DNA from: Antedon mediterranea
Taxonomy: Eukaryota; Echinodermata; Crinoidea; Comatulida; Antedonidae
Direction of reading: 5' to 3'
NCBI RefSeq assembly: GCF_964355755.1
Contig: NC_092670.1
Span: forward strand, 36,133,795-36,197,794
DNA length: 64,000 bases
Shown here: positions 1-35,330 of the stretch, one piece after another
Layout of the letters: every line of letters starts with the position of its first letter
How positions within the stretch are numbered: position 1 is the stretch's first letter
Translations under genes and position numbers: made by a program
The notes under the pieces: generated by a model
Seen by the model: the letters and a program-made list of their open reading frames with translations, nothing else
Database searches by the model: none
What the model was told of the DNA's origin: nothing

Positions 1-3000
1 CGCATGTCTCCAGAATTGGTGAACTTCTTGGTGTCAACGCCGTTGTTGGAGTTGAATTGGTTGTCGTTTACTCCAGTACCAGTGACGTCACAGACGAACT
101 TAAGGTCAACCTTATGTGGTTTTCGTGTAGCGGGAGCACCAGAGAAGATTGGTTTTGGATCACTTCTGAGGGTATTGATGTATCGCATCTTCTGTTGACT
201 AAGACGCTGTAGAGAAAAAGTGTAAATATTGGTGAATAGCACTGTTGTAGTAGTAGCAGGTGATTTGTTTATAAATATTATTAAAGAGTGAACACCACCC
301 GATGAACGTCTTTGTAAATGCGGCGAAGTGCCCATTTACTGCATACATTGCCATAACCTTGTGTCTTATTTTCAATTGAAGCTTTCTTTATTACTGTCAA
401 AATTTGTTTTTGAAGTTCTTAAAGTTAGTGAAAATATTATCTAAGTTTGTTATTGCTATTTTCTTGCTTGTATCGCCTGTACTATTTTTGTGCCATGTTG
501 GACACTGTTATCCCCAGTTGTCAATAAAGAATAATAAATATTACATAATGATAACACTTACTTTGGATTTAGTTCCGCATTCATCATAGAATGTTGTTAC
601 TGTCATCCACTTAGAGTTTCGGCTCTTGGCTGTACATTCTGGATCGTGAAGGTGGAGAAGTTCTGGTGCCATGTCATCGACGTATTTGTGTGGAACGTGG
701 AACGTCATGCTGTAGTCACCACAATCAACGTATGGTTCTGGTGGAGGTGCTGTAAGAAGAAACGTTTTCAGAACTTATTACAAAGATGGTATAATATAAG
801 GGAAATAGATACATTAAGATGGAAACAAAACGAAAGTTTATGCAGTAAATCAAATTAGAAGACCGTACGTGATTTGAATCCCCATGTTGTTGGTGGATTT
901 GGTTTCTTTCCTGGATCATCGCCGCCACCGCCGCCTTTGCCACCTTTTCCTTTTCCTCCCTTTCCTCCTCCTCCGCCGCCTGAAAGAGCTGAGCCCATTT
1001 CGCTTCTGCATGGTGATGGATTGACTGCCATTACGACGCCACCGTCCAGTTGAAGAGTAAACAGCATGCCGTCTTCAATGCCTGATGGTTTGTTGAATCG
1101 AAGGATGGTTGGGTCATCTGATGGGAATTCTACATCACTGGATTTAGAGGCGTCAAATTTAGCCAACACCTTTTGGCTTGGAAGTTCCAAAATTGAGATG
1201 TATGCACGGTTGGTTGGTCGAACAATCTAAAAGACGGTTAATAATAAATTACTAGCAGGTAAATGCACAAATAAATAATGAATGAAGAATGTAATGTATT
1301 TCAACGACGTGTTCAATTAATATTTTAACCAATGTAGGCCTATTACTGTACCTTTTTGTTGAATTTGATTTTCCATACTTTTTCCTTAGCGGTTTCGAAA
1401 TCTGGTGAGGGAATAGATTCTTCTGGAATGGCCATTGGTGGTGGTTTAGGCTTGCATTCAGCCGTTTGGAAGGGGTACATCAAGCCTGGATTAGGACTTT
1501 CTGCTGGAGCGTTACCACATGGGTCTGGTTTGTAGACAATAGCTGTACCTGAGTCAATCTCAACGAAGTATTGCACACCATCCTTGAATTTTTCTAGTGG
1601 AGGTTTGAACTCAATTATTGAACTCTCAGTTCCTTCGACAAATTTAATTTCATTAGGATCGGCAAAGTTGAATTTGGCCAATTCTTTGAAGTCCATTCCC
1701 TTTCGGTACTTAAGTCGAGCGTATGCTGGTTTGCGTGGTCGAGCAACCTATAAATTAAAATTGTTTTCGTCATTATTAGACCTAAAATTAAAGTGGATAT
1801 AAAGTATATACATTTGGTTAATCAAGTGACCTTGAACTTCAGAGAAACAGAGGAATTATTTGTGTCTTTGGTGATTAAGGATGATGAAGGATTGTTTTAT
1901 CACACCTCAGGAAACCACAATTTCCCATAACTTCATTCTTCATGGAAAAATAATATAAAAGCCACAAACACATAGATTAGCAATTCCACACCCACATTGC
2001 CATCATGCAACACGAATTACTATTATTATAGATACTTGTTTGGTAATTACTGACCGAAAGAATTACACAAGCGCACTACTACCAACCTGAAAATAACAGG
2101 CCTCTATTATTACATTACTATTACAATTACCAAGCCAATGTTTTAAACTATAAACCCAACTGAATGGTACGGACAGTTTAATGTTGAGAATCGAGCCTAA
2201 AACGTGGTTCCCACTAGAACGCAACGCAGCGACGTATTGACGCAAAAAGTGATGTATTGCGTAATCAAGTGGGAACCGTCGACGCGGTAGTGCTGCAAAC
2301 ATCGCAGGTTTGTTTTCTAGGCGGGGGAAAATACAATTATTGGAATGGCATTTTGTTAAGTTGCGTTACGTTGCGTCGCTAGTGGGAACCAAGCCCAAGT
2401 TACATGCATAGTTAGATAATAATGCTTACTGGCTTGTTGAAAGCGAGTCTCCATGTCTTAGGCATTGGGGTTTCTCCTTTCTTGTTACCATAGACTTGTC
2501 CTGGTTTAGGAATTGACTTAGCCATGAGTAACTGAGCGGGTTCGGCTTCTTCTTTGTCCTTGGGCAGATCCTCTGTAGAAATATAATGAAAATATACAGC
2601 GTGAATAAGTTTACGAATAAATCTATGTCTAAACTATCAAACTAGTTTGACACAAAAGTGTGATGTGCCTAAATATGGTAGTGATATGACAAAATGACAA
2701 AATATTTGGAATTAAAGATATGTTTCGATAAAGATTTATACGTACTTGAGATCATAATTCGGCCACATACCGGATCACTTTGTACCCTGAACAAAACAAA
2801 TAATAAAAATATTATCATACGATTTTATATCTAATTATCTAATTATAAACATATTTTATAGGCCTAGATATACTAATACCAATATATTCCAAAATGTCTA
2901 TAAGCGATAAAATAATTATGTCTTGATAAACAAACTAACCAGTTGTTATCGAGAGCGGTGTAGCAAAATCCGACAACTCCTTCTTTTCTGCCAGCTGTGT

Positions 3001-5765
3001 ATGAAAGTTCCATAGATGCCTCGCTTCTTGGTAGGCTAGTGGTGATCTTAGTCTTCATTCCTGCTGGGGGACTCATTGGCATAGCAATGATACTGTAAAC
3101 AATTGAGAACATTTTTAAATATCAACGATATTGGTCGCTATAGAAATACAATAGTTGGTTTTGTGTTTGCAAACTTCTAAACTTACGTTTCGGCGTCTGA
3201 TGCTGGAAGAATTCTTGCTGTTACAATTCCTGTCCATTTCTCACCAGGTCGGATGATATCACAAGCTGGGCCTTGCACCAATGGACCTACACAGCTACCG
3301 GCTGCAAGTGTAGATGGTTTAATAGTATGGTTAAACTTAGTATAGTATTAGATTAAAACAAGATTTTAAAATGAAAAACAAGCTGAATACAACTGTACTA
3401 CATTTACTTGATAAGCCTCTTTATAAACTTTGCACAGAATGAGGATTCTTCACCGCCTAATATTAGTGATGGCTGTGGAACCGAAACGTTAGACCACGTA
3501 CAGTAATACCAACTTATATTTGACTATTGCTAACCCGTATTAAGTAGATTTATTTATAAATTGAAAAGTGTTTTTGATATTCGAGGGAAGGACAAAGGCA
3601 GGATATCAATGATCGATTGATAATCATAATCGATTGGTATTGATTAATACTTACGTTCTGTTACGTTTAACAGGAACTGGAATGGAATTGTACTCAGTGG
3701 CTCATTTGACTTCTTGTTCTTAAAATCTTCCACCATGATGGATGCAGCATACCAGCCAGGTATACCCATCTTAGGGAATTCCAATTCACATCGATCCTAT
3801 TGAGAAAAATATAATTTAAGTTCTGAGGAAAATCAAAATCCAAATAAAGTAACCAACATAACGAATTATATTTATATTTATATTATTATAAACTTAAACA
3901 TGAAAACTCATGGTTGCAAAAAGGGTCACTCCAATGAGTGGGATTCTACAAAACTAAAAAAAAATCGTGTTACCGAAATAAAGGAAAACAAAAACGAAAT
4001 TTTACAGGATTGTTTTTACCTTATCAAGAACTGCGTAATCGGTTGCCATTCCGCATACATGTTGGTCACTTCCGAATTTTGGTGGACATTCATTTTTGGC
4101 ATCGACCGCCCATCGACATCGTACAATATCACCATCTGGGTCAGATGCTATAGTAAAATAAAATGCCAACGTAATTATTTGTTGTTTATACAATATACTG
4201 ATACAAAGTAAGTTCAGAACTTTGACAAGAAACGAATGTATAATTATGTATGTGCATGGAAAGAAAATGTAAGGTTTAAGAAGGCAAATAAATGGACAGG
4301 TAATAGAATGAAACGCGAAATAAATTAAGGAAGAGTAATTGAAAGTGGAGAGTGAAGGAATGGGAATGGAAAAATGTGAAATGAAGGAACGGAAAGAGAA
4401 GCTAAATAAAAAAAAAGAATGAAAGAGAATGTTACGTAATGCAAATTAAACAGGATAATGAAGGTAAATTTGAGTATTAATTTATGTTGTGTTCTTACCT
4501 TCAATTGGAATAACACTTCTGCAGCCAGATCGAACAGTGAATACAGGCAACATAGTGACAACGGGTGAATGTTGATTTTTCTTAACTAAGTCTACTTTAG
4601 TTACCAATCTCCAGCAACTTCTTCCGGCTGCGTTTACCAGGTCAATCCAGTTACTGGCAGCTTTACATTGGGATTCAGGTTCTACTTGATAACTGAAAAA
4701 AAATGAATTCATTTCGCGTCTAAGGTTTCTGTTTGTTCTACAAAATACCTTACATTAAGATTGGTTATCACTAGGACGCAGCGCAAGGACGTGAGCAAAA
4801 CGCAAGTGATTTGACCGATCACGACGTGATATATCATCCGTGTCGCTGTGATTTGTCAACACGCGTTGCGCCTAAGTCATTGTATGTCCAACAATATGCG
4901 TCTATGGTTAGTGTTCTTTTCTTAGCTTATTTATAATAAATCATTATCATATATTATTATAAAATAAACGCCATGAAACACTTAAAAAGCTGTAGAACTT
5001 ACAAAAGTGTAAATTGTGGTCTATCTGCGGTAAATTCGGCGTATCCTTCGACAACACTCCAGTCTTGTGTTTCACTATACCCAACACAATCATAGGTCAA
5101 AGGTCCTGCAACCTTATTGTCTCCGGCGCAGTCAATACATCTCAATACACCATTGTATTCACCAGTCATTGTTTGGCCAATGTTCTTGCATTCGTACTCA
5201 AGACCCCATGATCTTTTGGCAGCCAACCTCCACTTTACTCTAATCTAGATAAAGTTAAAAAGGTGAAAGTGTAATTGCAGACCTTTCGATGACAAATTGA
5301 TGAGGAGAGAGGTTAAATGATTCGAGTAAAAAGGGGAAAAAACATACATAAGAATGTTACATTAGTCAAAAGAAAGAATGTAAGTGATGATATTGAATAA
5401 TTCTGAATTGCGTAATGTTGAAAAGAATGTTGAATAGAGGACCTTTGGCCAACAAGAAAAAAAAGGTTTTTTTAGGGGCATTGTGTTTGCTATGTATTTA
5501 TATGTTATCGTTCTTAGTGCACATACGAACATACTGTATTAATATGTCTATAGAGATTGTTCTAATTCAGATTTAGATTAAAATTGTAATCTAATAAAAC
5601 AGTTATTGTTTTTAGTTCACATTGCACATCTCCAGACAATCATGCAGGCAATAAACTTACTTGGTTTTTACCCAACTTCTCATAGCTGAAGGTACCACCA
5701 CGGTAATGGCTGGCCTCTACTGCCCCCAGAACAAACACCAGTGCGAAGAGTACAATACCTTGCAT
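1..5765 (-). CDS. Secreted ZP-domain multidomain protein, gene A (3' end beyond window)
   Basis: Not a gene I can name. Thirteen coding exons are visible (5765-5661, 5244-5003, 4692-4499, 4147-4020, 3796-3655, 3301-3187, 3092-2940, 2786-2746, 2572-2430, 1747-1352, 1226-869, 749-562, 191-1); all join in frame to give 798 residues before the edge. Residues 1-18 are a signal peptide (MQGIVLFALVFVLGAVEA), followed by SHYRGGTF. Then come a Cys-rich segment, SDPDGDIVRCRW (about 182-193), a GWYAASIMVEDF segment and a VQSDPVCGRI segment. Two related ~90-residue modules (about 410-530 and 545-635) resemble bacterial-type Ig-like (Big_5/SbsA) folds. A Gly/Lys linker (636-655) leads into a ZP-N half with VDCGDYSMTF, LHLHDPEC and DECGT, and the beginning of the next ZP segment (VDLKFVCDV). 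ZP domains polymerise outside cells, so a coat or matrix role is inferred. It is paralogous to the gene at 25483-35330. Confidence 0.88.
2203..2396. mobile_element. MITE family 1, diverged copy in an intron of gene A
   Basis: The ends are inverted: GGTTCCCACTAGAACGCAAC on the left and GTTGCGTCGCTAGTGGGAAC on the right. Short TIR-bounded elements of this sequence recur at 4753, 32366, 39530 and 59212. No transposase is encoded, so it is a nonautonomous inverted-repeat element. Confidence 0.7.
2628..2705. mobile_element. MITE family 2, half copy
   Basis: It contains the family words ACTATCAAACTAGTTTGACA and GTGATGTGCC followed by ATATGGTAGTGATATGACA; the second terminal repeat is absent. It lies in an intron of gene A. 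Confidence 0.5.
4753..4880. mobile_element. MITE family 1, decayed copy
   Basis: It keeps recognisable GGACGCAGCGCAAGGACGTGA and CACGCGTTGCGCC blocks in inverted orientation but has lost clear termini. It lies in the gene A intron between exons 4692-4499 and 5244-5003. Confidence 0.5.
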
Positions 5766-6715
5766 TTTCGCTAAAATAAACGAAACAAAACATGTTAATA
5801 AAATAGTAAAACGATATATCTAACTAAACAAGTTTGAAAAGTACGTAATTTACCAATTGTATTGCCTTTGAAAAAAAAAACAATAATAATAATATATTCC
5901 TCCTAGCAATCTTCTTTGGATGTTTTTACATAAACTTTTTGCATAAACCTTTTTCATAAACCGTACTAATAAAGATCGTTTACTATTTGAAAAGCTAGGC
6001 CAAGAGGATTATTTTTTAAATGATAATTATGCTCCGTGTGTTTTAATAATAACGCTTTTTTATCTAAACATTGCATTCTATACGGTATTAAATCAAACAT
6101 AAGGTTAACTAACTAAACTATTCACAGTATTCTAATTAAAATTTCTAGAAAATATAAATTCAAAATATGGAACTATAGAAAGTGTGTTTTTATGAGTCGT
6201 TACTATTGCTAATCTTACAAATGAGAAACTGCAATCATTTTGAGGGAACTGATACAATTCGTGGAAGTAAAACAAAACTTATTTTTCTAAAAAAAATGCT
6301 AATCAACTGAATATACTACTGTAAACTATATACACAAGGAGAACTTTTCTTTACGTATACGAAAGTTTAGGTAAAAAACTTTCGTTTAATAAATCTATAG
6401 TGTACGTTGAAAAACATTAGGCATATAGATATAATCATTCTGATATTGTCAACGAATATACAAAGCCAGCTATATAAATAATACTTAATATGTTATCACT
6501 ATTTCTAAAAATAACTAGTATGCCTACTATCTAAAAAATTAAATAGTTTGTTGTTTCAAACATATTTATTTCAAAATCTATAACTGGTATTTTATCTATA
6601 TTTTTCTTACAGTAATACACGTTACTATATAAAACAAGTTGAAAATTCCTACCTTGTGTTTAAACTCCTGTGCTAGATAAACTTCAGACGTATGGTACGT
6701 CTGCCGATCTGATGC
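5766..6715 (-). other. 5' UTR of gene A: noncoding exon 1 plus intron
   Basis: On the minus strand a short exon runs from about 6714 to 6653 and ends at an AAG|GTAGG donor. A TTTTAG acceptor at 5772-5771 lies a few bases before the ATG at 5765. The intron between them (about 880 bases) is very AT-rich and shows no other ORF. The layout matches the noncoding first exon inferred for the paralogue. Confidence 0.6.
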
Positions 6716-6736
6716 TGAAACTTTCAAATAGAGGCG

Positions 6737-6776
6737 TTTATATATCTTTTTGGTTGTCATTTACTTCATTACGTCA
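6737..6776 (-). promoter_or_regulatory. Core promoter of gene A: TATA box and CRE-like site
   Basis: On the minus strand TATATAAA lies at 6744-6737, about 25-30 bases before the likely transcription start near 6714 (TTTCAGCATC context). A CRE/ATF-type word TGACGTAA sits at 6776-6769, 24 bases upstream of the TATA box. The same two elements precede the paralogue. Confidence 0.6.
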
Positions 6777-7485
6777 TCAGTTAATGATGCACATTTTTGT
6801 AAAATACATGTGGATTTCTCATTAAATTGCATTATATTAATACGGCTCATATAAAATGAATATACTTTACATTATTGCGTTAATATACAAGTTATTTGAT
6901 AACGAACTTTTAATCGCTTGCCTTACTTTATCTAGAACAGTTTTGCTGACGTTTTAAAATTTAATATAGGCCTAAATCCAAACAGATGGTCGACTTAAAA
7001 CTTTTAATTATATTACCCATTGTATTTCGTGATGATATTTCTGCTGTAAATATGGTTAAAACTAATGTTACGATAATATTAAACAATAGTTTCCGTATGG
7101 TTATTTCCTTAATTAAAAAAAAAACAATGTTAAATTGTTTATTCCTTGATTTAACAATCACTACTGCAGTTGGGTTTTTTTACGGGACCTCAAACATCAT
7201 ATCCAGCTATCCAATTGTTAAGGGTAAGGAAGAATTAAAAATTCTATTTTTTTAAACCTTTTTTTCTGGCATTTTACTTAAGAAACTTTAGGCCTATGCA
7301 TACATTCTTCAAAATATAATTTATTTATTTATTGCATTCGTATTACAATCAAAATGTCGTTTAAACGGGTAGAGTACAGGATTGGTAATAAAAAATTAAA
7401 TTAAACGTTTAGTAAAGTTAGGTTTGTTCTAAAAGAAAACAAGGTTGGTAAAGCAAGTAAAGTAAAATTGACACAGTCAAAGGTA
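6777..7485. other. Intergenic, no gene seen
   Basis: AT-rich sequence upstream of the gene A promoter. Overlapping ORFs on both strands at 6961-7255 have low-complexity composition and no recognisable domain, so I annotate nothing here. Confidence 0.6.
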
Positions 7486-7815
7486 TCATGTCAACATTAT
7501 TTTACTGCAGTTACTCCAGTAACTGCATTTTTGTAATGAAACAAAGTCTTTTACCGAAAAAGCTTTTTTTTATTACTAAAAATATATTCATTTCATAATA
7601 TTCATAACTTAACGTATACAGTACATCTCTTTAAAAGTTAAGTTCTTAACACATTTACTTAGCGTGTTAATTTCTTACAGTATTCATTTTCTTAAACATA
7701 TTCATTTTTTAACATTAATCATTTTAGCAAAAAGCTTGCTAATTATTGCATAAACTAAAACGTAAAACAAAATGTATTTAATGCAGTAACTGCAGTAGAA
7801 TAATGTTGACATGGT
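7486..7815. mobile_element. Inverted-repeat MITE with ~35-base TIRs
   Basis: The left end has CATGTCAACATTATTTTACT followed by GCAGTTACT. The right end has GCAGTAACTGCAGTAGAATA followed by ATGTTGACATG, the reverse complement with few changes. The interior is AT-rich and noncoding. A fragment of the terminal word (TTATTTTACTGCAGTTACTG) recurs at about 21331. Confidence 0.65.
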
Positions 7816-7841
7816 CCCTAAAGGTCAAGGTCAAGAAAACA

Positions 7842-8080
7842 GACTGTAGTGGGGAACCTAATGTAATTCCGTGAGATTTTAATGCTCAAATTGAGTTCTT
7901 GGCAGTTTTGGAATCCTTAGTACTCACAGAATTCATATCAAAATGGCACTTATTTTTTACTCAAAACTGATAGTTAGCTCCTTATTTAACCACGTACGAA
8001 CGTAATTTGTGTGACAAAGCTTACAATAGTATGATAAATCAGTCCAAAGGTACAATTTATAATAATAGCATATGGCAACC
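7842..8080 (+). repeat. Dispersed repeat, copy 1 (pair with 22494)
   Basis: It shares long blocks with 22494-22782, such as GATTTTAATGCTCAAATTGA, TTCTTGGCAGTTTTGGAATC, CAAAACTGATAG, TTAGCTCCT and ACGAACGTAAT. No coding potential is seen. The family is unidentified. Confidence 0.6.
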
Positions 8081-8219
8081 ATATTGGAATCCAAGATGGC
8101 CGCCATTAAAAATGTATATAATATATGCATTTATGTATTTAATCATCAAATTATGGCTGCCATATGAATAAATAAATAATATTGAGAGAATATAGTATTA
8201 AAATATACGTATATATATA

Positions 8220-8390
8220 AATCCAAAGGCAAATTACTGAAAAAATGACAATGCTGTGGGTATCAGTGGCTGGATCTCATTGGAGATACAAAATAAAAGC
8301 GAAAAGCTAAATCAAAACGAGAAGTAAAACAGCCAGAAAAGTTAGCAGAGCTTTCGGGCAACACTAGCCCTTCATCAGTACAAGTGAAGG
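8220..8390 (-). mobile_element. Hammerhead-like element end, copy 1
   Basis: On the minus strand it reads CTGATGA (8378-8372), one extra A, a GGGC/GCCC hairpin stem with a seven-base loop, then GAAA (8355-8352), the word order of a hammerhead ribozyme core. The block at 8341-8380 recurs at 9268-9307, and the block at 8220-8265 recurs at 9217-9265. Penelope-like retroelements carry such motifs; assignment to them is inference. Confidence 0.45.
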
Positions 8391-8479
8391 AATTTGGATA
8401 ACGTCATAGTATAAAGCTGGCAAGTGCTGCCTGGGTGGACAGGAATAAAAGAAATATAACAAAGGGCGACAGGGTGGAG

Positions 8480-8507
<28 letters not shown>
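8480..8507. repeat. (AT)n microsatellite
   Basis: About 14 AT units. A matching run at 9190-9216 lies on the other side of the SINE pair. Confidence 0.9.
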
Positions 8508-8510
<3 letters not shown>

Positions 8511-8809
8511 ACATCAGGCAATGAATATTAATTCTAAACCGTCCGGTGATATACTGAAATTTAATTAATTAATTTGAAACGATAAAGATGAGGAAATCTG
8601 TGAGAATGAGAAAAAGTCGCCCCAACCGAGACTCGAACTCGGACCGCCTCCTTGATATGCAGATGTCCTAACCATTAGACCACTGGGGCTTTCATGGTAT
8701 TGTTCAAACTCGATTGGATAGCGACTCTTTAACATTCTCGGCGTGGTACGGTGGAACAGCACTAGTCCTCAGTTGTACGCACGCGCACCAGAGATCAAAT
8801 TGATACGCC
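8508..8809 (-). mobile_element. tRNA-derived SINE, copy 1
   Basis: The minus strand at 8689-8619 folds as a near-complete tRNA. It has a seven-pair acceptor stem (GCCCCAG/TTGGGGC), a D arm with GGTCTAATGGTTAGGAC, and a T arm with GAGTTCGAGTC (B box). The anticodon stem has mismatches, and the loop would give anticodon ATC. The tRNA-like head is followed by an A/T-rich tail with ACTTTTTCTCATTC. The mismatches, lack of a proper terminator context and a second copy 367 bases away indicate a SINE or tRNA pseudogene rather than a working tRNA gene. Confidence 0.65.
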
Positions 8810-8870
8810 TTCATCTTTCTGTATTTTATTCACGAGGCGGGATCTCCGAAGAGATACTTTTATATAATTA

Positions 8871-9179
8871 TATAAACACATCAAGCAATGAATATTAATT
8901 CTAAACCGTCCGGTGATATACTGAAATTTAATTAATTAATTTGAAACGATAAAGATGAGGAAATCTGTGAGAATGAGAAAAAGTCGCCCCAACCGAGACT
9001 CGAACTCGGACCGCCGGCTTGATATGCAGATGTCCTAACCATTAGACCACTGGGGCTTTCATGGTATTGTTCAAACTCTTTTGGATAGCGACTCTTTAAC
9101 ATTCTCGGCGACGTGGTACGGCGGAACAGCACTAGTCCTCAGTTGTACGCACGCGCACCAGAGATCAAATTGATACGCC
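8871..9179 (-). mobile_element. tRNA-derived SINE, copy 2 (tandem)
   Basis: Nearly identical to 8508-8809, including the flanks (ATAAACACATCA...ATCAAATTGATACGCC). The tRNA-like body is at 9056-8986. It differs in the anticodon stem (GCCGG instead of GGAGG), so neither copy has a fully paired stem. Confidence 0.65.
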
Positions 9180-9185
9180 CCAATC

Positions 9186-9189
<4 letters not shown>

Positions 9190-9216
<27 letters not shown>

Positions 9217-9310
9217 AATCCAAAGGCAAATTACTGAAAAAAATGACAATGCTGTGGGTATCAGTTAGTTAGCAGAGCTTTCGGGCAACACTAGCCCTTC
9301 ATCAGTATAT
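9190..9310 (-). mobile_element. (AT)n run and hammerhead-like element end, copy 2
   Basis: An AT run (9190-9216) is followed by a shortened second copy of the element at 8220-8390. The CTGATGA / GAAA words lie at 9305-9299 and 9282-9279 on the minus strand. The interior is deleted relative to copy 1. Confidence 0.45.
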
Positions 9311-10880
9311 ATTTATATATAAGTCAAATTACATATAATTTCGTAATTCCCAAATAATTAAGATGATTGTTTGTTTGATCTAGACCTTTTCTCATAATTT
9401 TAAAGGTAATTCTGGTAAAAGTACACATTAGGCTCAATGAACCGATGTGCCTTACAGTACATTAAAAAAGTAAAGTACATTTACACCAAAACATGATTAT
9501 GATTGAGAGAGAAAGAGATTACCTTAATTGCTAAATGAGATATAACATATTGGCTCCATCAAGCACGAGACATAAAATATGTTGGAAAGTAGTAGAAGTA
9601 TTATAGAGTATCATAGGTAGCTGAAAACAATCACATGATATTCCACGAGGTAATATGTTTTCAAGGGCAGTGGCTTGAAAAAGAGGGTATTAAGCTAAAC
9701 GAAACACCTGGTCAAAACACCCTGCACCAGAATAGGCCTAACGTTATCGCTAAATTTGAATTATAAAAACATTTCTGTTATACATATATAGTTTTGACAC
9801 ATACCGTATTGAATAAACTTCCTATTGAATATACGTCCCTCATAGAACATCATTTGAAATAAACGAATAAACGACCCGGGGCATTTATTCATTTCCTCGA
9901 ACAAACGATATTGCACTATTGTAGGCCTACACATTTTCATTGTACATTATTTATTGATATGATCTACAATTTACCAAGCCTTTTTTTTCTTAAGTAGGTT
10001 CGACCCACTTTTATTTCCTCATCAGTTAAAAATGTTCATTTATTTACAATGCATTGCACTTGATATTAATGTAATAGTATAATGCAAATACAACTGACAT
10101 TATTTAACTTTCAATACATATTAATAATTATTAAATCTCCTACTATTGTATTTTTAACTACAATAATAGTAAGAATATTTTTTTTAAATCATCTTTTACC
10201 AAGAATTTTGATACCATTTTTACTGTATTTTATCCCTATATTAACTATTTTTGTCCATGTTACCATATATTACTCGCGCCAGAGTAAACGTCTCTCTCGA
10301 ATAAACGCTACACTAGAAATCCTCCTGAACAATAAACGCTTGCGTTGCGGCTATGGTAATAAAAGAATGATACACGGAAATATCATCACTATCATTGTGA
10401 ATGAGTTTTAAGAGTAATGAATCATCAGACAATTATTTAATACGACTTTACCACACGTATTAAACTCATCATCAAACATAATGGAATTTAGAATATATGT
10501 TTAAGTGGTATTATTTAGTTGTTGTCAATAAAAAGTTAATATTAACAGTCATATAGGCCGAAATCACGAGGGGTCAGCATTTTAATACGTAGATGTCATA
10601 TTATTACTATAATTATTATATATTAACGACAATTTAAGACGTAAGCGCCATTTAGTCTAATTTTGAAATCCTATATTAGCCTTTTATAGTTTAGGAGTTA
10701 GCAATAATTGGATGTGTCCGATAATATTGGAGAACAGTTGAAAACACGAAAATCAGCGAAGAATTAGCAATCCACAGGAAAATCTACCACCCGATTCTCG
10801 AATCGGGTGAAACTACTGTCCTGTATTCATTGAGTAGGATCAAGTGTATACTGTAGAATATTTACAACTATTATATTGAA
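9311..10880. other. Intergenic, no supported gene
   Basis: The only sizeable ORF (10082-10411, plus) is an Ile/Leu-rich translation of AT-rich DNA. It has no recognised domain and no plausible splice or promoter context. I see no gene. Confidence 0.55.
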
Positions 10881-10883
10881 CAC

Positions 10884-10990
10884 TTTTATTCTACAGCTCA
10901 CAGGATGGTTGGTCGGTCGGTTGGTCGATCGGTAAACTCAAATTTGAGCACGCGACTGCAGCCATGTATATGGAATTGTTTACGTTTGTT
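10884..10990. repeat. GGTCGG-type dispersed repeat, copy 1
   Basis: A run of GGTTGGTCGGTCGGTTGGTC is followed by GTAAACTCAAATTTGAGCAC and GCGACTGCAGCCATGTATAT. The same order occurs at 13124-13246 and, inverted, at 15104-15196. Confidence 0.7.
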
Positions 10991-11029
10991 GAGGTTATGT
11001 ATACGTAACTACAGGCTGTTTCGTTTCGT

Positions 11030-11095
11030 TGTGTCTCACTTGGGACGCCACGCAAGGACGTAAGCGCAACGCAAGTGATATAACCATGGAGAGTG
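11030..11095. mobile_element. MITE family 1, half copy
   Basis: It contains GGGACGCCACGCAAGGACGT and AAGCGCAACGCAAGTGATAT, one arm of family 1. The opposite arm is missing. Confidence 0.5.
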
Positions 11096-11099
11096 AAAT

Positions 11100-13120: not shown

Positions 13121-13123
13121 GTT

Positions 13124-13246
13124 TTTTAGTCGCGTGCAACGCGACTTTACAGCTCACTATGTCGGTCGATTGATCGGTCGGTTGGTCGGTCGGTCGGTAA
13201 ACACTAACTTGAGCACGCGACTGCAGCCATGTATATGGCCTTGTTG
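13124..13246. repeat. GGTCGG-type dispersed repeat, copy 2
   Basis: GTCGGTCGATTGATCGGTCG and its continuation are followed by GAGCACGCGACTGCAGCCAT. It begins with a short inverted pair, GTCGCGTGCAACGCGAC. Confidence 0.7.
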
Positions 13247-16475: not shown

Positions 16476-16479
16476 CAAT

Positions 16480-18590: not shown

Positions 18591-18599
18591 TACATTTAG

Positions 18600-22493: not shown

Positions 22494-22782
22494 ATAGTGG
22501 GGAACCAATGTTCCAAATATCAATTCCATGAAATTTTAATGCTCAAGTTGAGTTCTTGGCAGTTTTGGAATCTTTAGGACTAGTAGAATTCATTGCAACT
22601 GGGGGCCAATTTTTCCCATCCTATTTTGGCCGCCATCTTGGATTTCAAAATGGCCCCCATTTTTTACACAAAACTGATAGGCCTATTAGCTCCTATTTTA
22701 AACCAGCTGATACGAACGTAATTAATTTGAAAAATCTTACAATATTATTATAAATTGTACAATTTATAAAAATAGCATATAG
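22494..22782 (+). repeat. Dispersed repeat, copy 2 (pair with 7842)
   Basis: It contains the same ordered blocks as 7842-8080, with an extra central stretch around TTTTGGCCGCCATCTTGGAT. The 65-codon ORF inside it is part of the repeat and is not a gene. Confidence 0.6.
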
Positions 22783-22799
22783 CTGAGACAGAGTGACCG

Positions 22800-23890: not shown

Positions 23891-23900
23891 CAGGTCTCTG

Positions 23901-23947
23901 TTACGTCACGAAATATCGAATAGATAAACACCATGCGAGTATATAAG
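23901..23947 (+). promoter_or_regulatory. Core promoter of gene B: CRE-like site and TATA box
   Basis: TTACGTCA at 23901-23908 and TATATAAG at 23940-23947, 31 bases apart. Gene A has the same pair in the same order. Transcription would start near 23970. Confidence 0.6.
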
Positions 23948-23969
23948 AAATTCCTACATTTTTTACTTC

Positions 23970-24127
23970 GACATTGATTGGAAGACAACGGAAGAACACG
24001 GACTTAACGCAAATAAAAAACAACACAGTTTCTTCTTCTTCTTGTCTTTTAGAATTGTTTTCGCAAACAAAGAGGAAAGTTGGATTGCGCAATTATAGGG
24101 TCTGCTGTACCTACATTTTATAAATCA
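23970..24127 (+). other. Noncoding exon 1 of gene B
   Basis: From about 30 bases after the TATA box to an AATCA|GTAAGT donor at 24127/24128. The next acceptor is TATAG at 25474, eight bases before the ATG. The intron (about 1.35 kb) holds nothing recognisable. Confidence 0.5.
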
Positions 24128-25482
24128 GTAAGTATATCAACTTTTTTTATCATTAAACTTTTATCAAAGTTTTGAAAAAGAACCATTTTCAGCAATAATC
24201 GAAAGAATATTTTAAACTGTAAACTGTATTCATAGAGACATTTGGAAACTAAACATATTTATAATTTCAAATAATGAAAGTAAATTTAACATAATGTGTA
24301 TTCCTATGTGCACCAATTTGTTTACTTTTTTTTACAAAAGAATACGAATTTCTATCGATGCACTGTATGTTACCCTTAATCTTCTAAACTTACCAGCTAA
24401 ACAATATTTATTCTATTTTACCTTGTATTTATTTACTGGTATACTTCACAATATATACATATATATACATAAATTAAGTTTCTATATTATATATTTTTTT
24501 AAATAAAATAAAAACTATACAATATTAGGTTTTTTTAAAGAAAAATAATATTTCCTTACATATTGTATTATTAGTTCTAAGTCTTTCTGAACTACCAGTA
24601 TCTTTATTCCATTCTACCTTGTATAAATGTATTAAATTATGACTACCATACTACTTCACATTATATCCCTAAAACATAAATGCATTTTCTATATTTTATT
24701 TTGAATTAAAAAAAACTATAGGCCTACACAAGAAAATAATTGTTTGTCACTTTTCACGATAATTGGCTTGTCATGTTATGTATTATTGAAGTGAAATATC
24801 GAAATGTTCACACTAAGATAGTTGCTTCAAACCGTGAAATGCACTCAGATCGTGACTCTACGTGTTGTTAGTTTCTTAGTACTTTCTTCCCTGTTGGGAT
24901 TCAATGTACAAACTCCAGACTGTCTTTGTTGAACGTTTTTCCAACTAATTGGAAATCTTGATTTATATTTATGATATGAAGATTCTGATTTTGAAGTCGT
25001 TTAAATTATTTAGCAATTAGTAAACAAGCTTAGATATGTAAATGAACATTGTAATCTTAGATATAATTTAATAATACATTATATATTTTAATATTTATTT
25101 ATAATACAGTTTTGTGTACTGTATATTGATAAATAATTGTAGTTAAGTGTAGTTCTTCTGGTGACAACGACATATCATGTTATGGTGACTCTGTTGCTTT
25201 TGGGGTCCCAGGACGTGACATGATGTCGAAGAAATAATGAAATGAACATGAATGAAATTAGTTCCATTACGTATTTACTTTTTAAAAATTGTTTCTATGT
25301 AAATATTATTTAAAGATGTGTACATATGTAAAATATAATGCAATGTAAAATTAATACTAACTATTAATAACTAAAATCGAATACTGCATTTCTCACCACA
25401 AAAATAACAATAAATACTCAATATAGTCCTATTCAAATGCAATGCTATTTTTTATTTTTTGTTTTTGTTTATAGGTTATAAG

Positions 25483-28400
25483 ATGACAGGTCTAAGGACA
25501 GTATTACTTCTTCTAGCTGTCGTCTGTCTTTCTCAGGCAACTCATTTTAGAGGTGGAACTTTTAGATGGCGTCCATCGAGGACGAGGGGACAGGTAATAC
25601 TAATAACTCATTAAAGTTATTTTAAATTAATTAAATTTTAATTAAAAAACACAATGCGTTAATTCGAAATTTAATATCATAATTATTGTGTTTTCATTAT
25701 ATCTGTCTAAACAGGACAGGTATATTGTTTTATTACCGCATGTTTTTAGGTAATGATGGATATTTTGTGATATAATATGCGAATATCGAATAGTAGGCCT
25801 AATAATAATTATTAAATACAGTATTCTGAGGATATTGAATTTTTCTTTAAAACATATTTTGTTTAAAAAGAAAAGATCTAAAAAATCACAAAGACGTGAA
25901 TTATTTCTTCTTTTAGATATTAAATCTAAGATCTTATAGGTCTTAGATTTCTAGATCTTGGTTTCCTAGACACCCAATTTAAATCTACTTCTGTAGAACG
26001 GAAATAAATCATCATTGATTTGTTATTAATGCGTTTAGAAAGAATTAGGGTTTTAATTATTATACTTATTCAATAATGCGGAGAGCTAATTTCCGTAACT
26101 TAAATACCAGTGTGAACGCAATTGATTTTATCACCTTTCATTTTCAGCAAGTAGTCGATCATTAAACCGCTTAAAAAATTGAGCTTGTTAAATATCAAAA
26201 TAAACGACTGAATGAAACTAACGTAATTTAGGCCTAGTCACGTTTACAATTGTACGGTTGCTCTTTTTACGTTAAATCGGTCCTGTAGATTTGACAAGTT
26301 ATTGTTAATAAAAAAAACATTCGGAGAATAAACTAGACATTTTGCATTTCAAAAAGGCGGCACCAGGCATTAAACCAAATAAGTGATATCTGTACAGAAA
26401 TCTATCAGGACGATAGTTACGTCGTCTCAAAAAAGGTCAAGTACATATGTTATCTATTATTGAATTAAAACCTTGGACTGTATCTGTCGGAATAACCGGG
26501 ATAATGATTATATCTGAAATTGAAACATTTATTTCCACCGTTACCTATAGTTTTAGAAAACGGTTGAATTTGCGTCCAACGGAGATCTAACGAATATCAT
26601 ACAGTTTCGGCGGTATTTCGATTAATGTTGTGTTTGTGATATTAATTTTTTCATTTTCAACTTTCATTTTTAATAGTTTACAACGCTATTATGTGATTCA
26701 ATCTCCGAGAAACTGTCTGCAATCCTCCACATATGAATAATTAAGTATTTGTTTGGCAGGTGGAAAGTTTCAAACTCCTTTTCATGAATATTCATGTCAA
26801 TTCTAACGCGCCAAAATGACGTCACACGCATAACTATTATGTTTACTAATATTCTACAACTTTACCAATCCATACAGTACAGGAATAAACGCCCTAAATT
26901 AAATTATACCTATTTTCTGATAATAAAATATTTAAGATACATTTGAAGACAAATACGCACTTGGGCGCCTTATTTTAGTACTTTTTCAACTTGTTTTGAT
27001 ATCTAGCTTGAGGCATGATATCTCTTTAAGTAGGCCTAGTATGAGTAAAGTCGAATTCTAAAGCAGAAAATTGGTCAGCTAAATAAATACGTTAAATTCC
27101 AATGATATATCATTTTATTGAGATGTTTTTAAAAGATATGGTAGCTTCCAGTTAAGTTATAAATGTAATTTGTTTTTGTTTTTTTTTTTCAATTCTGTTT
27201 ATACATATAACAATAATTAGAATATGTGACTAGCATTTCTACCCGATATCCAATTGTGCCATAAAAAGCGGTACTTTTGCTGAAGTAAAAAAACAAAACG
27301 ATTACAGATGTCACACAAACTTATTATCCAATAATAACTGATTAAATACTACTTATTAAAATTTGGAATAAATAATGTAAATATGATTTTAAAATTACAC
27401 AAGTAACACGTTCCGAAAAATAGTTAACTTGGAAACATCTAAACAATTTCCAAAACGGCAAAAATAGATTTTAAAATTCATCAATAAGTTGAAGGTTTTA
27501 TTATGAATACGTTTAATATCGCATTTCCTCCCCTACGTTGCTGGAGTAACAGCGGGTGACCCAAAACCGCGACACCGAGAAACGCCATCAACAACTGAGG
27601 CTACTCGCGCAGTCCATTCTCTCGTTGCAAATCGAACTAATTCAATTTCACACACTATGCCAGAGTAAGCCAACTACCACTGTCCGTTTCTCGTTACAAA
27701 TCGTTGATATAATAATTTAATTTAGAGCACTCGCTATGAATAAAGAACACCGATGCTTTATCTTTAATCATCTGGACATTTCTACAAATTCGAGAACAGT
27801 TAACTTCGTGTATGGACTCTAATGCGTGTCTCTATTTTTACAAACTATCTGTTGAGCACATGGTTTTAAACCAGTGGTTGGTGAATCAAATCCTAAACAC
27901 CTTGTATCCCGATACTTACATACAAATAATGAAATTATTTATTCACAATTAAACTTTATTCAATTGATAACTTACGTCATTTTAAATACGTCATCGGGCT
28001 CTTGGTTGAATTTAAATTAATTCAAAAGGTACACGCCATCTATCATTATTCTTTAACTTAGACCAGATTATAATCTACTGACAATTAGTAGAGAGATACC
28101 TTGACTAATTTAATTAATTATCCCGTTCAGGCAACATTCTCTAAAGTGACAGAAGATAATCTACACTTGTAAAAATAGTATTTATAGTGTACAAGTTAAA
28201 ACATTTAAAAGCGAACTTGAGTTGAAATTAAATATTCCGCAACAATTGCATCATTCAAAACTAGATATCGATCTCATTTTTTTTCATATTAAACCTAAAC
28301 TTTTTTTTCATGATTTTTTTAGTATTTAAGACAAGTCACAAAGCATAACAGGTTTTCTTTTACCTGATCATAGCTTCAATGGCAGGCCAATATATTTTTC

Positions 28401-31400
28401 AAATAAGAAAATTATCTTTAATCAGAATTAACGTAAACGCCTGCCTACATGAAGGAAGTAACATATAAAATAATTCTTTCATGTCCTACGACTGAAAACC
28501 CAATCTAAGAAATAATATTCTCCGTCCTTGCACAAGAGTATGAGAATGTGAACATGAGAATGTACGAACATAAATATCCAGTCAAAATTATTGAATATAA
28601 TAAATGAAACATTAATTTGTATCTGTGTTTTCTATCAATGTGTACTACTATTTGTCTATTTTGTTTTTTAACCCTAACCCCGTTTTGTTGTGAAGAAAGG
28701 CAATGTATTTTTATAGAAAGCGAATTTAAATTATAACCACTAAAAATTTACTTTTTTTTCATTGAAACACAAACATTAGATATTATATCCTTATCTTTCT
28801 CGTTTAAAATTAATTAACATTCAGTATGACGGACCGGTTTAGAATTTCTGATGTTAATTTAGGCCCATAAGAAAAGGTGATTCAAAAGTGACGTAAATTA
28901 TAAGAACATCTAACTATTTTAGAGTTAACATTTAAGAGTTGCTCTAGCAATGAAAAATATTGTGTAGCCTATAGCATGCTCAGGTTCATGGGCGCCTGTT
29001 GACGATAGCGGTAGGGTGCATGATCGAATTTCGAAATGAATGTGGCCTAGGCCCCACTTCAAGGGGACTTTACATTCCATCAACTATTTCATCAAGTATT
29101 AACTAATAAAATGTTAAATTCCTGTCATGCCGCGCTCATTGCGCAAAAAACTAAACGCAACACTCTGATTCAACAGCGGTTGAGTTTCGATATCAATGTG
29201 GTTATATCTTTTCTAGGAAAGATTTTTTTGTTTATTGTTTTTAATTAAAAGGATTTATAAATAAACAACCGTTCTGAAACTTTCTATTTCTGGTTTGCAA
29301 AGCAATTGCGTACGTGTTTGTTAACTGAATCATGCTATGAGAACTAGACAGTGTTTATTGGTACTGTAAACTTTACAGATGGTGACATCTCTAAACACAA
29401 TAAAAAAAACACAAATCATTACATTTATACCGATAGTAAAACAATTTCAATTAGTAGGTATCGAAGATTTTTTTAAATCACAAACACATATAATCTTAAA
29501 AATAAATAAAATAATACTAAATGGTTATATTATTGGATATCTGAAACAGTATATGGAAAGAATATATTTATATTTTAGTTAACTTTAAACGTGGTTTTAC
29601 CAGGGAAGAGTGAGATTAATTAATGCCTTCCCAGGTTTTACAGGCATTTTATTTCCAAATGAGATGATTTTAATTTACATTACGATTCTATTGTTGTAAG
29701 TAATGTTGCTCTGAGGATGTTCTAAACTTATATAGTCATTAAACTAAAGCAAGAGGCTTGAAACTTATCAGCTGGTTTTACTTTTGATAAACAATCGAGG
29801 GTTTTTATAAAACATATTTAAAATAGAAAAATTAATATACAAACACAGATCATTCACAATACCTGACGTACTATAAGTTGTTTACTTAGCTTACAGGACT
29901 GGCCTTTAGAATGTGTTTACAGTTGGTCAGGTTGTCAATCATAACCTACCTAATATTTTCATATTAGTTGTATGATACCGTAAAGTCGTCTGCTACTGAC
30001 GCGACCACACAGAATTGCGCGTATGACTGCTGTAAGCGGTACTGTACATATCACTGACTGCGGACTGGTCACAGGCAAAAAAACTAATTTAAAGCGCGTC
30101 GTAATTAGATGTTTAGGGGTTTGCGGAAAAGTATGGAATACAAGGCTATAAATATAAGAACTATATTTATTGTTGTTTTTTTAGATTGAAATTTCATGGC
30201 GTGTATCATGGAGACGGTCGTATGCCCCTCGCAATGACTTTTGGTGCGAGTATCCAGGACAACATCTGGGTGGAGAAGGCGACATTTTGTGCGTAGAATG
30301 CCGCCGAAGAATTTACAGACAACTAGATTTCAATTGTACTGATTTTAGCGATCATAATATTGAGGACTGGAGCACAGGCGTTGGATCTTTCTTGTACACC
30401 CCGGACAGAGAGGTCTTTACAATTAGGTAACGTTACCATGTTTACTGACCAGTTTATTTAAAAGGAATACTTCCAAGACCTATAAATAGAATACTAAGAT
30501 ACTTATCTTCGAAAGATGGAGCCCTAAGTTAAATTATGCCAAAGAGAGAATTCAAAGTTAAATATTATAGATTTACATTTCGCTGACTCAGTAATAGTAG
30601 GCCTAATAGTTTTTAATAAAGGCTAATTAAAAATTATCAAAATGTAACATGTGGAATATTACATAATTAAAGATATGAAGAAGAATCCACTAGTTACTGG
30701 ATTTATTTACAAAACTATGGTGATGCCAACTATTGGAACATGATTTCAACAATTGACCTTCGACCTCGACCAGACACACGACTGCCAAATTCATCACCCT
30801 ACACCACAGTCATTCCAATCATCAGGGTGCAGCAAGGCTGTTCTAGTAAAATCAGAATTCCGGGTGAGTATTTATTGATGTACTACTACGATTTAACTAG
30901 GTGTATTGTGTTTTGGCAAGAGTTCAGAAGGGTATATTCTATTGTTGTTTACCTATCTATATTCGTCATATCAAACTGAAAACTAAATCCTTTAAAACAT
31001 AAACCTAGTGATCATGCACCTTGATTGGCTATCATCGTAGTTTTCACGATGCATGTGTTCCACTCAAATAAAGCGCGCTCATTAAGAATTCACAAGAAGC
31101 AACCGGAATTGTGTGACGATAGAGAGGGCGCTCTGTATACAATGAATTCCGAGCAGTATATTTGAAAGAATTGTTTTTATTACGTATTAACAATATAAAC
31201 TTCTTTCCACAGTCTCGGATCCGGACTATGATACCGTAAGATGCAGGTGGACAAACGAACAAAGAAGAGAATGTCCACCAAATCAGTTCGACCATTCTGT
31301 GTGTGGTAGCCTTACAGAGGAGAGCACACTTGATTCTGTAAGTTCGTGCCTCTAATTGTATTCAATGATCCCTATAAAGTTCACTAACACATTCAAAACT

Positions 31401-34400
31401 ACTAACATTAACACTTATGTAACTTAAACTGATTACTGTTACAGGACGAATGCGAGATATATTTCCCAGCAACTGCCGAACCTGGTTGGTATGCAGTCTC
31501 AATGATGATCGAAGATTTTGCAACTCCAACTTCAACGAAAGCTCTCAGCACTATTCCTCTCCAATTTCTTATAAAGGTTTTCCCACTTGGTAGGTTAACT
31601 CGATTTAGGAAAACAGAGTTATGATGAGTATGTAGGCCTTGGCTACTAGTAGGAAATGTATCACTATCATTAGAGCTAGCTACACGCGTAACAATGTTAC
31701 CTACGCCCTGATGTGGGTCAATACACAGATATCCTCAACCGTTTCGTTCTATTCTATTCTATTCAGGTTTTTATATGGCGCCCTACAAAGAACCTAAGAG
31801 CCTAACAATACTTAGTAATTAAAAAGAAAAGTTTTAAGTTGACGTTTAAATAGAGGTGCCGAATTCGCTCCTCTCAAATCGACAGGTAGCGCGTTCTAAA
31901 TGGCCAAATGCTTTTAAATGTTTATCTTCTGTTTCAGATGAGCCATGCCGTCAACCTGAAATCTTTGAGCCTCCTGGTACCTGCTTCTACCTGAAGCCTA
32001 ACAAACCGTGGAGCATTGACGTTAAGGCGCGAAGTGGCAGACGAGGTGTTGGGTAAGTATACTACTGTTACTAATGTCACAATCCAAAATCCAGATTTTC
32101 ATTTTCAACCAACGGAATGTTGAGTGATTGCAGTTCGTGTTAAAACGATTTACAACAACTTTTTATTAATATTAACTTATTTTAGCATTGTTGAGATTGG
32201 AACAGCATCGCCAGCCGGTATGACCAAATCACCAGTGAAGAGAGTATCGCGCTCAAGGAACGACTACGCAATCACGCTTCGCTGGATTCCACGCGAGACA
32301 GGAATTCACTTTGTTTGTCTATACGCACGAGATACATACGGGTAAGTCAAATAGATACTTCACATTAAAGCTTGGATCCCACTAGAACGTAACGCAAGGA
32401 CGTAAACGCAACGCAAGCGTTTTAACCAATGACAAGCGAAGTTATAGACAGTTAGCAATCACAAGCGAATAAGCTATCGCTTGTGATTGGTCAATTCACT
32501 TGCGTTGCGTTACGTCCTTGCGTTGCGTCGCTAGTGGGAACCAAGCTTTAGACTGTTATCTCACATAGACAAACGACGAGTACTTGTTGGTATTACATTA
32601 TTTGATTTTAATTTGTCAATTCCCTTTTTCTAGAGTTACAAGTGACCAGAGATGTCTAAGACTAATCGTTGCTGGTAAGTTTAAACAGCAAACTCAAATT
32701 AGTTACTAAATGAGTAAATTGGCAAAGATAAAAAATCTTCATAGAGATATACATTTGAATTTAAAGCAAGCTTGTTTTAAAAAGTTCTATTCAACACAAT
32801 TGTAAAATACTACGTGCTAACCATACTATTTATAATTGAATTGATACAGCGTCGCCAGCAAGCAGAATTGCACCACAGCCTCCAAAGATTGTTCCCAGAA
32901 AATCATACCCATCACCGTTGCAACATGTCGTGCCCGAAAACAACGAATGGGTCATCAGTTTCGACAAACCGGTAAGAAAGTTTGTTCATGATAGGAAGCT
33001 TTCGATTTGCGAAAACCGAAGATTTCAGATCAGGCTCTCTTTGGACCCACGGCACGACAGCCATCAGTGCAGAGCCTACAAAGATGAACGACAGGGGCTA
33101 ATGGATTAATATTCCGGAGTAACAGCTAAGCTGCTGCCAAAATATGCACTTGAGTCACATGTATACGTAATCTCAATTTGTTCAACAATAGTCGAGGGAG
33201 ACTTGCTATTATTTTATGGCTATGGTTTGCGACTCCCATAACTAGACCACTATCAGCCAACTGGAAAAAATAACTATTGCAGTTTTATTAAATATTTCAT
33301 TTACAGATTAAAAGACCAAACGAACCAACCTACATTGAGATTATCAACCCAACAAAACCCGTTCCACCAATCTTCAGGATTGATGCCGCATCCGAATCAG
33401 TGACGTTCAACGAGACATCTCTGTCATTTAAGACTCCAGGAATGTTGTTGAAGGACAACGCTCTCCACATGATCTCAGTTGATCCAGGAATTGCGCGAGT
33501 CAGGAACCCAGATCCTTGTGCTGCTAGAACAGATACACAACAGAGTGGTTGGATGTTTCGTACCAGTGAGTTAACTATTATGTAATTGCGTAGAGACACG
33601 TGATTAGTTTGGTAGACACGTGATTAGTTTGGTGGTCACAGAAAACTCGTTTCAATCTAACTGGAGTGTTTGTAATTAAAGCACCAACAATGGGAATTAT
33701 CGGCTATATTATGATACAGCAGTTATTAAAACGTCTGTTGAACGAATATGACCTCATTTTCCCTTTCCATTCTTTATAGATTCTTCCCTTATTCCACGTG
33801 AACCAGTAGTAGAGTGCCATGATTCTCACATGACTGTTTACATCCACCGAAGTATCCTTGCTGACGTCAGTTCACGTCGTCTGCATTTGCATGACCCCAT
33901 CTGCCGAGGAAGAGATTTGAACGAAACACACGTCATCCTTCAAACTGGATACAATGAATGCGGAACGGTCATCCGAGTACGTATATTACACTTTATTTTA
34001 TTCAAAAAATCGCTTTATTTAGAGATTTAAAAAAATGTTATTTATTTTATTTAACTATTTTTATTTAACTATTTTTGTTTTAAATGTTCAGGCTAAATCT
34101 GACAACATCGCCATGTATCGCAACACAATCCGTGACCGCCCAAGATCAGAGAAAGGTGCAAGCAAGATCACACGTGACGTCCGCCATCTTGAAATCAAAG
34201 TAATCTGCGAGATGGAGAGTGAAGGTTTGACGCACGGCCACTTCTTACCAAAGATGGCCAAGAAGACGTACGTAGCAAAGAGCGAAGGCCGCAGCAACTT
34301 CACCTTCCAAATGTTCGACGCACCAGATTACAGTCGTCGTGTAAGCCTGAATGAGTACCCAGCTCAGGTAGCCATGCGCCAGAGGATGTATTTCTCTGCT

Positions 34401-35330
34401 AAAGCTAGAGATCCTTCAAAGAGAATTCTTATTGAAACCTGTAAAGCTACACCAACTTCAGTTCCAGGAAGCAGAGCCAACCAACTCTTTGAGTTTGTGA
34501 AAGACGGGTAGGTCTACTGACTATATCATTTACTTACGTTCACGTGCTTCCATAATTCCAAACTTCTTTATTCTTCTCATACATAAAACCAAGTGTACAG
34601 CCGTTCTAAATTTATGATTATAAAATACATTTTTTCACAGTTGCCTTGTTGACAGCACGATGAAGACAGAGTATTCACCATCAATCTCAGAGCAAAGATT
34701 CTCTATGGAATCATTCTCGTTTATGTTCCATGGACTACATGGAGAGGTATGAATAAACACAGTTTACAATAAGTAAACGTGACACAAGTCAGAAGTTGTG
34801 AAACTTCTCTAGTTACTTTATAAAGTTCTAACCGTAAACCTGTGTCCTTTACCTGTAGGTGCTTAAGCACTGTCTACACTATCAACCTAGTTTTATGTGA
34901 TGTGCCCAAAATATGGAAATGATATGCTTCAATATGGTAGTGATATGACATCATCATGTCCTTACATAGGCACATCACATTTTTTGTCACATAAAGTTTG
35001 ATAGTGTAGACAGAGCTTTAGGTCTAGACATGCTCCGTTGTAACATGAGCAAACATATGTATAGAGGATCAACAATTCGTATAGACAATTGTCAAAACGG
35101 TTTGAAAACACTAAACCTAAATATGTTTTTTGTAATCTTCACATTACCCTGCCATTATTACCATTCTCTTTCGATTCCTTTTCCATCAGGTATTCTTGAG
35201 TTGTCAAGTTTTGATCTGTGACCCTACCGAACGATTCTCTCGCTGCAGCCAGGGTTGTTCTAGTGACGTCAGAGGTAAACGAGCAGCCAGTGACATCTCT
35301 GCTGAAATGGTATTACCACTGGAGCTTTAA
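25483..35330 (+). CDS. Secreted ZP-domain multidomain protein, gene B (complete)
   Basis: Fourteen coding exons: 25483-25593, 30185-30426, 30694-30863, 31213-31337, 31445-31589, 31938-32052, 32186-32341, 32634-32674, 32850-32971, 33307-33565, 33780-33976, 34092-34507, 34641-34746, 35190-35330. They encode 781 residues. There is a signal peptide at 1-19, then THFRGGTFRW, a Cys-rich region with an NCT glycosylation site, and SDPDYDTVRCRW (176-187). GWYAVSMMIEDF and VTSDQRCLRLIV segments follow, then one Ig-like (Big_5/SbsA-type) module (about 400-495). The ZP domain starts at VECHDSHMTV (about 504). A dibasic RGKR at 763-766 matches the furin-type cleavage site of ZP proteins. Only 15 residues follow and there is no membrane span, so the protein should be fully secreted. 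Its role in a matrix or coat is inferred. Confidence 0.9.
25594..30184 (+). other. Large intron of gene B (4.6 kb)
   Basis: Mostly AT-rich and without recognisable ORFs. A less AT-rich patch at about 27530-27710 contains a doubled CTCGTTGCAAATCG/CTCGTTACAAATCG word and stands out from its surroundings. An enhancer or old repeat is possible, but nothing is proven. Confidence 0.5.
32366..32550. mobile_element. MITE family 1, best-preserved copy
   Basis: Long inverted ends: TAAAGCTTGGATCCCACTAG with continuing ACGTAACGCAAGGACGTAAA on the left, and ACGTCCTTGCGTTGCGTCGC with TAGTGGGAACCAAGCTTTA on the right. The whole element can fold into one hairpin. It lies in the gene B intron 32342-32633. 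Confidence 0.85.
34862..35020. mobile_element. MITE family 2, full copy in gene B intron
   Basis: CTGTCTACACTATCAACCTA and AAAGTTTGATAGTGTAGACA ends flank an interior with GTGATGTGCCC and ATGGTAGTGATATGACATCA. It sits in the last intron of gene B. Confidence 0.8.

Follow-up and report, generated by a model that had tools for sequence, protein, structure and literature searches.

A divergent pair of ZP-domain genes in the crinoid Antedon mediterranea and a family of loci sharing their N-terminal head

Results

The gene pair and its surroundings

The window analysed here, by which we mean the whole stretch of 64,000 nucleotides (Antedon mediterranea, assembly GCF_964355755.1, contig NC_092670.1, positions 36,133,795 to 36,197,794 of the forward strand), contains two divergently oriented genes, A and B, whose models were built by hand on GT..AG splice sites. 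Gene A lies on the minus strand and has 15 coding exons encoding 938 aa; its coding sequence runs from position 5765 through window position 1 to -1207, and the final 1.2 kb, which precede the window start, were read from the adjoining genome sequence. Gene B lies on the plus strand and has 14 coding exons (25483-35330) encoding 788 aa. A first-pass annotation of the window had placed both genes within positions 1-35330, which is correct for B; A, however, is truncated by the window, and part of its exon 13 and the whole of exons 14-15 are located outside. By sequence, a member of this type consists of a head, made up of an RGG-type N-terminal part with conserved cysteines, a DPDGD/GWYA/EDF part, a third part and one or two RP modules, and of the ZP-N and ZP-C that follow it. 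The features are as follows.

Gene A (minus strand)
5661..5765: exon 1, signal peptide and SHYRGGTF (splice model)
5003..5244: exon 2 (242 b), Cys-rich part of the head (splice model; same length as exon 2 of B)
4499..4692: exon 3 (splice model)
4020..4147: exon 4, SDPDGDIVRCRW (splice model)
3655..3796: exon 5, PGWYAASIMVEDF (splice model)
3187-3301, 2940-3092, 2746-2786: exons 6-8 (115, 153 and 41 b), third part of the head (splice model; Big_9 weak, in consensus sequences only)
2430-2572, 1352-1747, 869-1226: exons 9-11, two RP modules and a Gly/Lys-rich linker (splice model; weakly Big_5-like in relatives H and D and in consensus)
562..749: exon 12, most of ZP-N (PF23344, E=4.1e-8, spliced protein)
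206 to -203: exon 13 (410 b, the first 206 in the window), ZP linker and ZP-C (PF00100, E=2.6e-11)
Beyond the window start, ending at -1207: exons 14-15 (splice model)

Gene B (plus strand)
25483..25593: exon 1, signal peptide and THFRGGTF (splice model)
30185..30426: exon 2 (242 b; splice model)
30673..30863: exon 3 (splice model)
31213..31337: exon 4, SDPDYDTVRCRW (splice model)
31445..31589: exon 5, PGWYAVSMMIEDF (splice model)
31938-32052, 32186-32341, 32634-32674: exons 6-8 (115, 156 and 41 b; splice model and splice-aware alignment)
32850-32971, 33307-33565: exons 9-10, one RP module (splice model and RP search)
33780..33976: exon 11, most of ZP-N (PF23344, E=1.5e-12, spliced protein)
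34092-34507, 34641-34746: exons 12-13, ZP linker and ZP-C (PF00100, E=1.3e-19)
35190..35330: exon 14, end of ZP-C, basic site RGKR, short hydrophobic tail and stop (splice model and hydropathy)

The order of elements that had been read from both proteins at first pass, namely signal peptide, RGGTF, a Cys-rich segment, DPDxDxVRCRW, PGWYAxSxMxEDF, a 41-base exon, an Ig-like region and a ZP domain, is present in both splice models, and the V-SDxxC motif reads VQSDPVC in A and VTSDQRC in B. The three identical exon lengths that had been proposed were recovered in the hand models (exon 2, 242 b; exon 6, 115 b; exon 8, 41 b). The intron codon phases are 0,2,1,0,1,2,2,1,0,0,1,0,2,0 in A and 0,2,1,0,1,2,2,1,0,1,0,2,0 in B; the earlier statement that they agree throughout is true for all matched introns but passes over one additional phase-0/0 repeat exon in A. 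By BLASTP the two proteins match with an E value of 3e-71 at 31.7% identity over 520 columns. The proposal of a duplication with introns in place is supported. With protein A as the query, a purpose-written splice-aware alignment gave ends for B exons 2-8 and 11-13 that are the same as in the hand model; the alignment began at exon 2, read through intron 9 (one stop), made exon 10 six bases short and halted within exon 14. In A as well as in B, ZP-N and ZP-C exceed their curated Pfam cut-offs. Since the start codons of the two genes are 19.7 kb apart, a bidirectional promoter common to both seems unlikely.

Several other features were seen in the window. Between A and B (8565-9138, minus strand) there are two near-alike open frames of 67-68 aa, perhaps a repeat, one of which was scanned against Pfam without a match. 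An exon of a glycosyl hydrolase family 35 protein is found at 47304-47573 and two exons of a fibrinogen-C domain protein at 60663-62132, all on the minus strand, and the open frames at 48947-49312 and 56673-57298 are built of short repeated peptides and are probably tandem DNA repeats.

The family of head loci

The genome searched amounts to 354 Mb in 18 contigs, of which the window forms one part. Searches with the heads of A and B gave 98 and 78 matches (E<=10), and these exon matches, grouped by hand, make up about 25 head loci, a count that is to be read as a lower bound: eight are located in an array on C1 at 15.21-15.32 Mb, eleven others are on C1, and C2, C3, C5, C6, C7 and C11 have one each. 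Locus C (C1, 36.12 Mb) is the convergent neighbour of A and is 54% identical to it. Models were made for 19 loci with introns (A, B, C, D, E, F, H, I, J, K, M, N, S, T, U, V, W, X and Y) and for an intronless locus, R; array locus O has a partial model, four more array loci were left out and V was followed only part of the way. The D, H and K models have uncertain 3' ends, and the 5' end is incomplete for C, D, F and H.

ZP-C is over the Pfam cut-off at 16 of the 19 loci that were followed past the head, the remaining three being I, J and T, and among the 16 members modelled into the ZP region it is accompanied by a ZP-N over the cut-off in 13 (C, D and N are without a reported ZP-N). Among the 19 models with introns, the short exon has 41 b in 11 (A, B, C, D, E, F, H, K, T, X and Y) and 38 b in J and M; it is fused to the next exon in N and U and could not be clearly delimited in I, S and W. 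The model of V stops before it. An RGG exon was not found in the upstream stretch read for H, I, J, S and T, so that their heads are documented from exon 2 or 3 onwards. A search of the genome for RP modules gave 26 matches, all of them at head loci; H, I, J and T are absent from these 26, and their RP modules are visible by alignment only.

Two members of the array repeat at C1:15.26-15.30 Mb with an offset of about 29.3 kb, three exon matches being equal-scoring and the exon 2 and RP matches unequal, which points to a probable recent duplication in tandem. Array members M and O are without the first intron, their exons 1 and 2 being continuous (C1:15309757-15309411 and C1:15240288-15239939).

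One reading is that the members of the family form polymers in mucus or coelomic fluid, which would trap microbes like uromodulin, and that the expansion of the family reflects immune diversification. The roughly 25 loci, the array and the diverged heads would agree with this, as would the finding that no anchor was seen in A or B by hydropathy, and the fibrinogen-domain exons in the same window are at most suggestive. However, an alignment of 13 heads contains 34 invariant columns, which points to a common structural constraint, and we regard the mucus or coelomic-fluid reading as improbable. The array with its similar copies could also be accounted for if these were proteins of an egg or larval coat, expressed in ovary or embryo, whose heads would serve to recognise gametes or to form a barrier. 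According to PMC6262864, the egg coats of vertebrates and of some invertebrates are built by ZP proteins, and sub-threshold matches to VERL_C were obtained for S (E 0.0059) and X (E 0.01). These matches sit on ZP-C, though, and may merely reflect similarity to ZP-C, and many other roles are known for ZP proteins; a coat function is, in our opinion, also unlikely.

An intronless member

Locus R (C3:5504300-5507300) is a single open frame of 783 codons from its likely start, with no stop and without introns. Its product carries a signal peptide and the RGGTF head, together with a single RP module, both ZP-N and ZP-C, and a basic site. Aligned with B, R is colinear across each of the 13 B junctions and has no insertion at any of them, and in a tree of the heads it is the sister of array member M with a support of 100/100. 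The divergence between R and M (dS 0.56, dN/dS 0.44) and the lack of a stop in R are the reasons why, on sequence comparison, R looks like a retrocopy that has been retained under moderate constraint. It provides a natural cDNA-like record of the ZP architecture: R is intact and has the whole architecture, and therefore an mRNA of the A/B family once joined the head exons to the ZP exons. The exon joining that the first-pass annotation had assumed for the transcripts is in this way borne out for the family, although this does not extend to the A and B transcripts.

The head in front of other domains

The head-ZP combination emphasized at first pass holds for the 16 loci with ZP-C, but the head, traced from exon 2 or 3 onwards, also precedes other domains in I, J and T. 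These domains were located by their position on the same strand, and their joins to the head are putative. Downstream of head and RP, J (C11:22087500-22100500) has HYR_4C (E 1.6e-7) and three CARDB stretches (CARDB, E 1.2e-23), and T (C5:22531500-22540500) has EGF (E 6.7e-8) and TIL (E 7.7e-8); downstream of the head, I has an EGF-like exon with an E value of 6e-4, slightly below the cut-off. A ZP exon profile built on 10 family members found no ZP exon in the stretches read for I (18.0 kb), J (13.0 kb) and T (9.0 kb), the best E value being 0.53, and the same profile did detect X, U and W, which are outside the profile, as well as an unrelated ZP gene on C10. Near the end of the stretch read for J, the sequence is RHS-like by eye (FGRGW).

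On C10, a cluster at 21.41-21.51 Mb accounts for 8 of the 15 ZP matches in the genome. The one gene of this cluster that was read has a CUB, MAM and ZP arrangement and resembles the family in its ZP domain, with CUB and MAM in the place of the head, and no head or RP match was obtained on C10 in the genome searches.

Judged from these arrangements the head looks like a movable module, and because I, J and T have it before other domains, head and ZP were probably joined by exon shuffling, the ZP combination being one product of this process. The tree of the heads, which has 15 rows, places I, J and T on one side of a weakly supported branch (67/33), and T and S form long branches; both a gain and a loss of ZP within the family would be compatible with it.

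Discussion

In this study, we describe a conserved module of extracellular proteins, about 370 residues long, which is unnamed in the Pfam copy used and which precedes three kinds of C-terminal domains in one genome. ZP proteins with diverse N-termini are already known; what is new here is a head that is unclassified and apparently shuffled, together with an intronless copy under constraint. Similar segments may occur in predicted proteins of other invertebrates. A literature search, in which motif-string queries are weak as papers seldom print motifs, led to no paper recognised as describing the head with the ZP architecture. The first-pass annotation had pointed out that the combination lacks a named family; this is supported insofar as the head has no curated family in Pfam, NCBIfam or among PDB sequences, but what had been taken for one pair is the family of loci described above.

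A scrambled control sequence matched at E 0.089 in the profile searches, and matches near 0.1 were therefore taken as noise. No Pfam model reaches its own printed cut-off on the head, the best E value over 13 heads being 0.0033; the head has no match in NCBIfam, which is a prokaryote library, and searches of PDB sequences with profiles made from 2 and 13 sequences gave nothing significant. Candidate prokaryotic and viral relatives were pattern matches, none of which was confirmed by tblastn. Matches of heads to K319L-like_PKD (2 members, best E 0.018), Pom152 Ig, CBM_14, V-set, CopC and zf-CCCH_2-like_3, and of consensus sequences to He_PIG and EMP24, were weak and were set aside as noise or generic Ig similarity. 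Big_5 matched the RP module of H (E 0.0033) and D (E 0.043) and the consensus (E 0.0012 and 0.015), and Big_9 matched the third part of the head in consensus sequences (E 6.7e-4, 0.0097 and 0.065), all of these being under the curated cut-offs. As far as can be told from sequence, the third head part and the RP modules appear weakly Ig-like; a structure model of the RP exon was poor (pLDDT 55), and a fold search was without a match at E<=0.001.

Weak matches in two members pointed to two domains of the amoebal Sib proteins. The first, SIBA-E_N (PF24907), matches F (aa 8-138 to 3-118 of 119, E 0.49) and H (aa 47-98, E 0.21), and in H it is followed in the proper order by the second, Ig_SIBA-E_2nd (PF24908; aa 124-217, E 0.0076); all of these are sub-threshold, and both SIBA-E_N matches are weakened by the level at which the scrambled control matched. 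No match to a Sib domain was reported by Pfam in A, B, the other heads scanned or three consensus sequences. A search of the genome with PF24907 and PF24908 gave none at the head loci and one match with an E value of 0.39 elsewhere, a weak test given that exons split the domains. Dictyostelium Sib is described in PMC12686525 as a transmembrane protein with a vWA domain and NPXY motifs; in A and B, in contrast, vWA is absent from the Pfam scan and there is no transmembrane peak. It is conceivable, although we put this forward only tentatively and rather doubt it, that the head derives from a pre-animal adhesion ectodomain held in common with Sib, which would have lost its anchor and become joined in this lineage to the tails of matrix proteins (ZP, HYR/CARDB and EGF/TIL), in which case an expanded and partly retroposed family would show an ancient adhesion surface on polymers. 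If the link to Sib is true, animal matrix proteins would be tied to a pre-animal adhesion ectodomain.

With regard to anchoring, a hydropathy scan (19-residue windows, threshold 1.6) revealed no transmembrane-sized peak in A, B or R other than the signal peptide, and the C, D, F, H and K models have no window above 1.6. A C-terminal transmembrane segment, as in the membrane-anchored type of ZP protein, was thus not seen by hydropathy in A and B. An internal hydrophobic stretch is present in M and S and is tentatively ascribed to wrong exons. A site of the form R-X-K/R-R followed by a short tail is found near the end of B, F, M and R. In contrast, A and C are predicted to end shortly after ZP-C without such a site or tail, and D has RIRR near its end with no clear tail.

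The family shares with the ZP matrix proteins uromodulin, the tectorins and the egg-coat ZPs a signal peptide and a C-terminal ZP-N and ZP-C, and in B, F, M and R also the basic site and tail, but differs from them in that A and B lack a transmembrane peak and A and C the basic site. The heads are unlike the EGF, D8C, VWD and ZP-N repeats of these proteins. By analogy with them, we consider it fairly probable that A and B are members of a secreted extracellular-matrix family in which the ZP tail polymerises and the head is displayed. As set out in PMC7486124, removal of the C-terminal propeptide of uromodulin accompanies the chaining of its ZP modules via beta-sheet complementation. If the crinoid proteins behave in a similar way, a C-terminal propeptide would be cut and the ZP would then polymerise; the short tail behind the R-X-K/R-R site in B, F, M and R might be this propeptide, and the heads would stick out from the filament and bind partners. 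One half of the A/B pair, namely A, does not fit this step of controlled cleavage. Since A and C are without site and tail, they may assemble without propeptide control or may be partners of other members.

It is also possible, and compatible with a secreted polymerising family, that the filaments are made from members with site and tail only, that is from those of the B type, and that A and C are non-polymerising or have a capping role. The distribution of the R-X-K/R-R site would be explained by such a division of labour. However, the ends of A and C are taken from predicted exons, behind which another 3' exon may lie, and D has RIRR but no clear tail; we view a restriction to the B type as somewhat doubtful.

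In the course of the genome searches, a homeodomain search found twelve Hox-type homeodomains in order at C2:7827770-8206180, within 0.38 Mb and with the second inverted; from their signatures we take them to be Hox1-8, Hox9/10 and three posterior genes of the 11/13 type seen in ambulacrarians.
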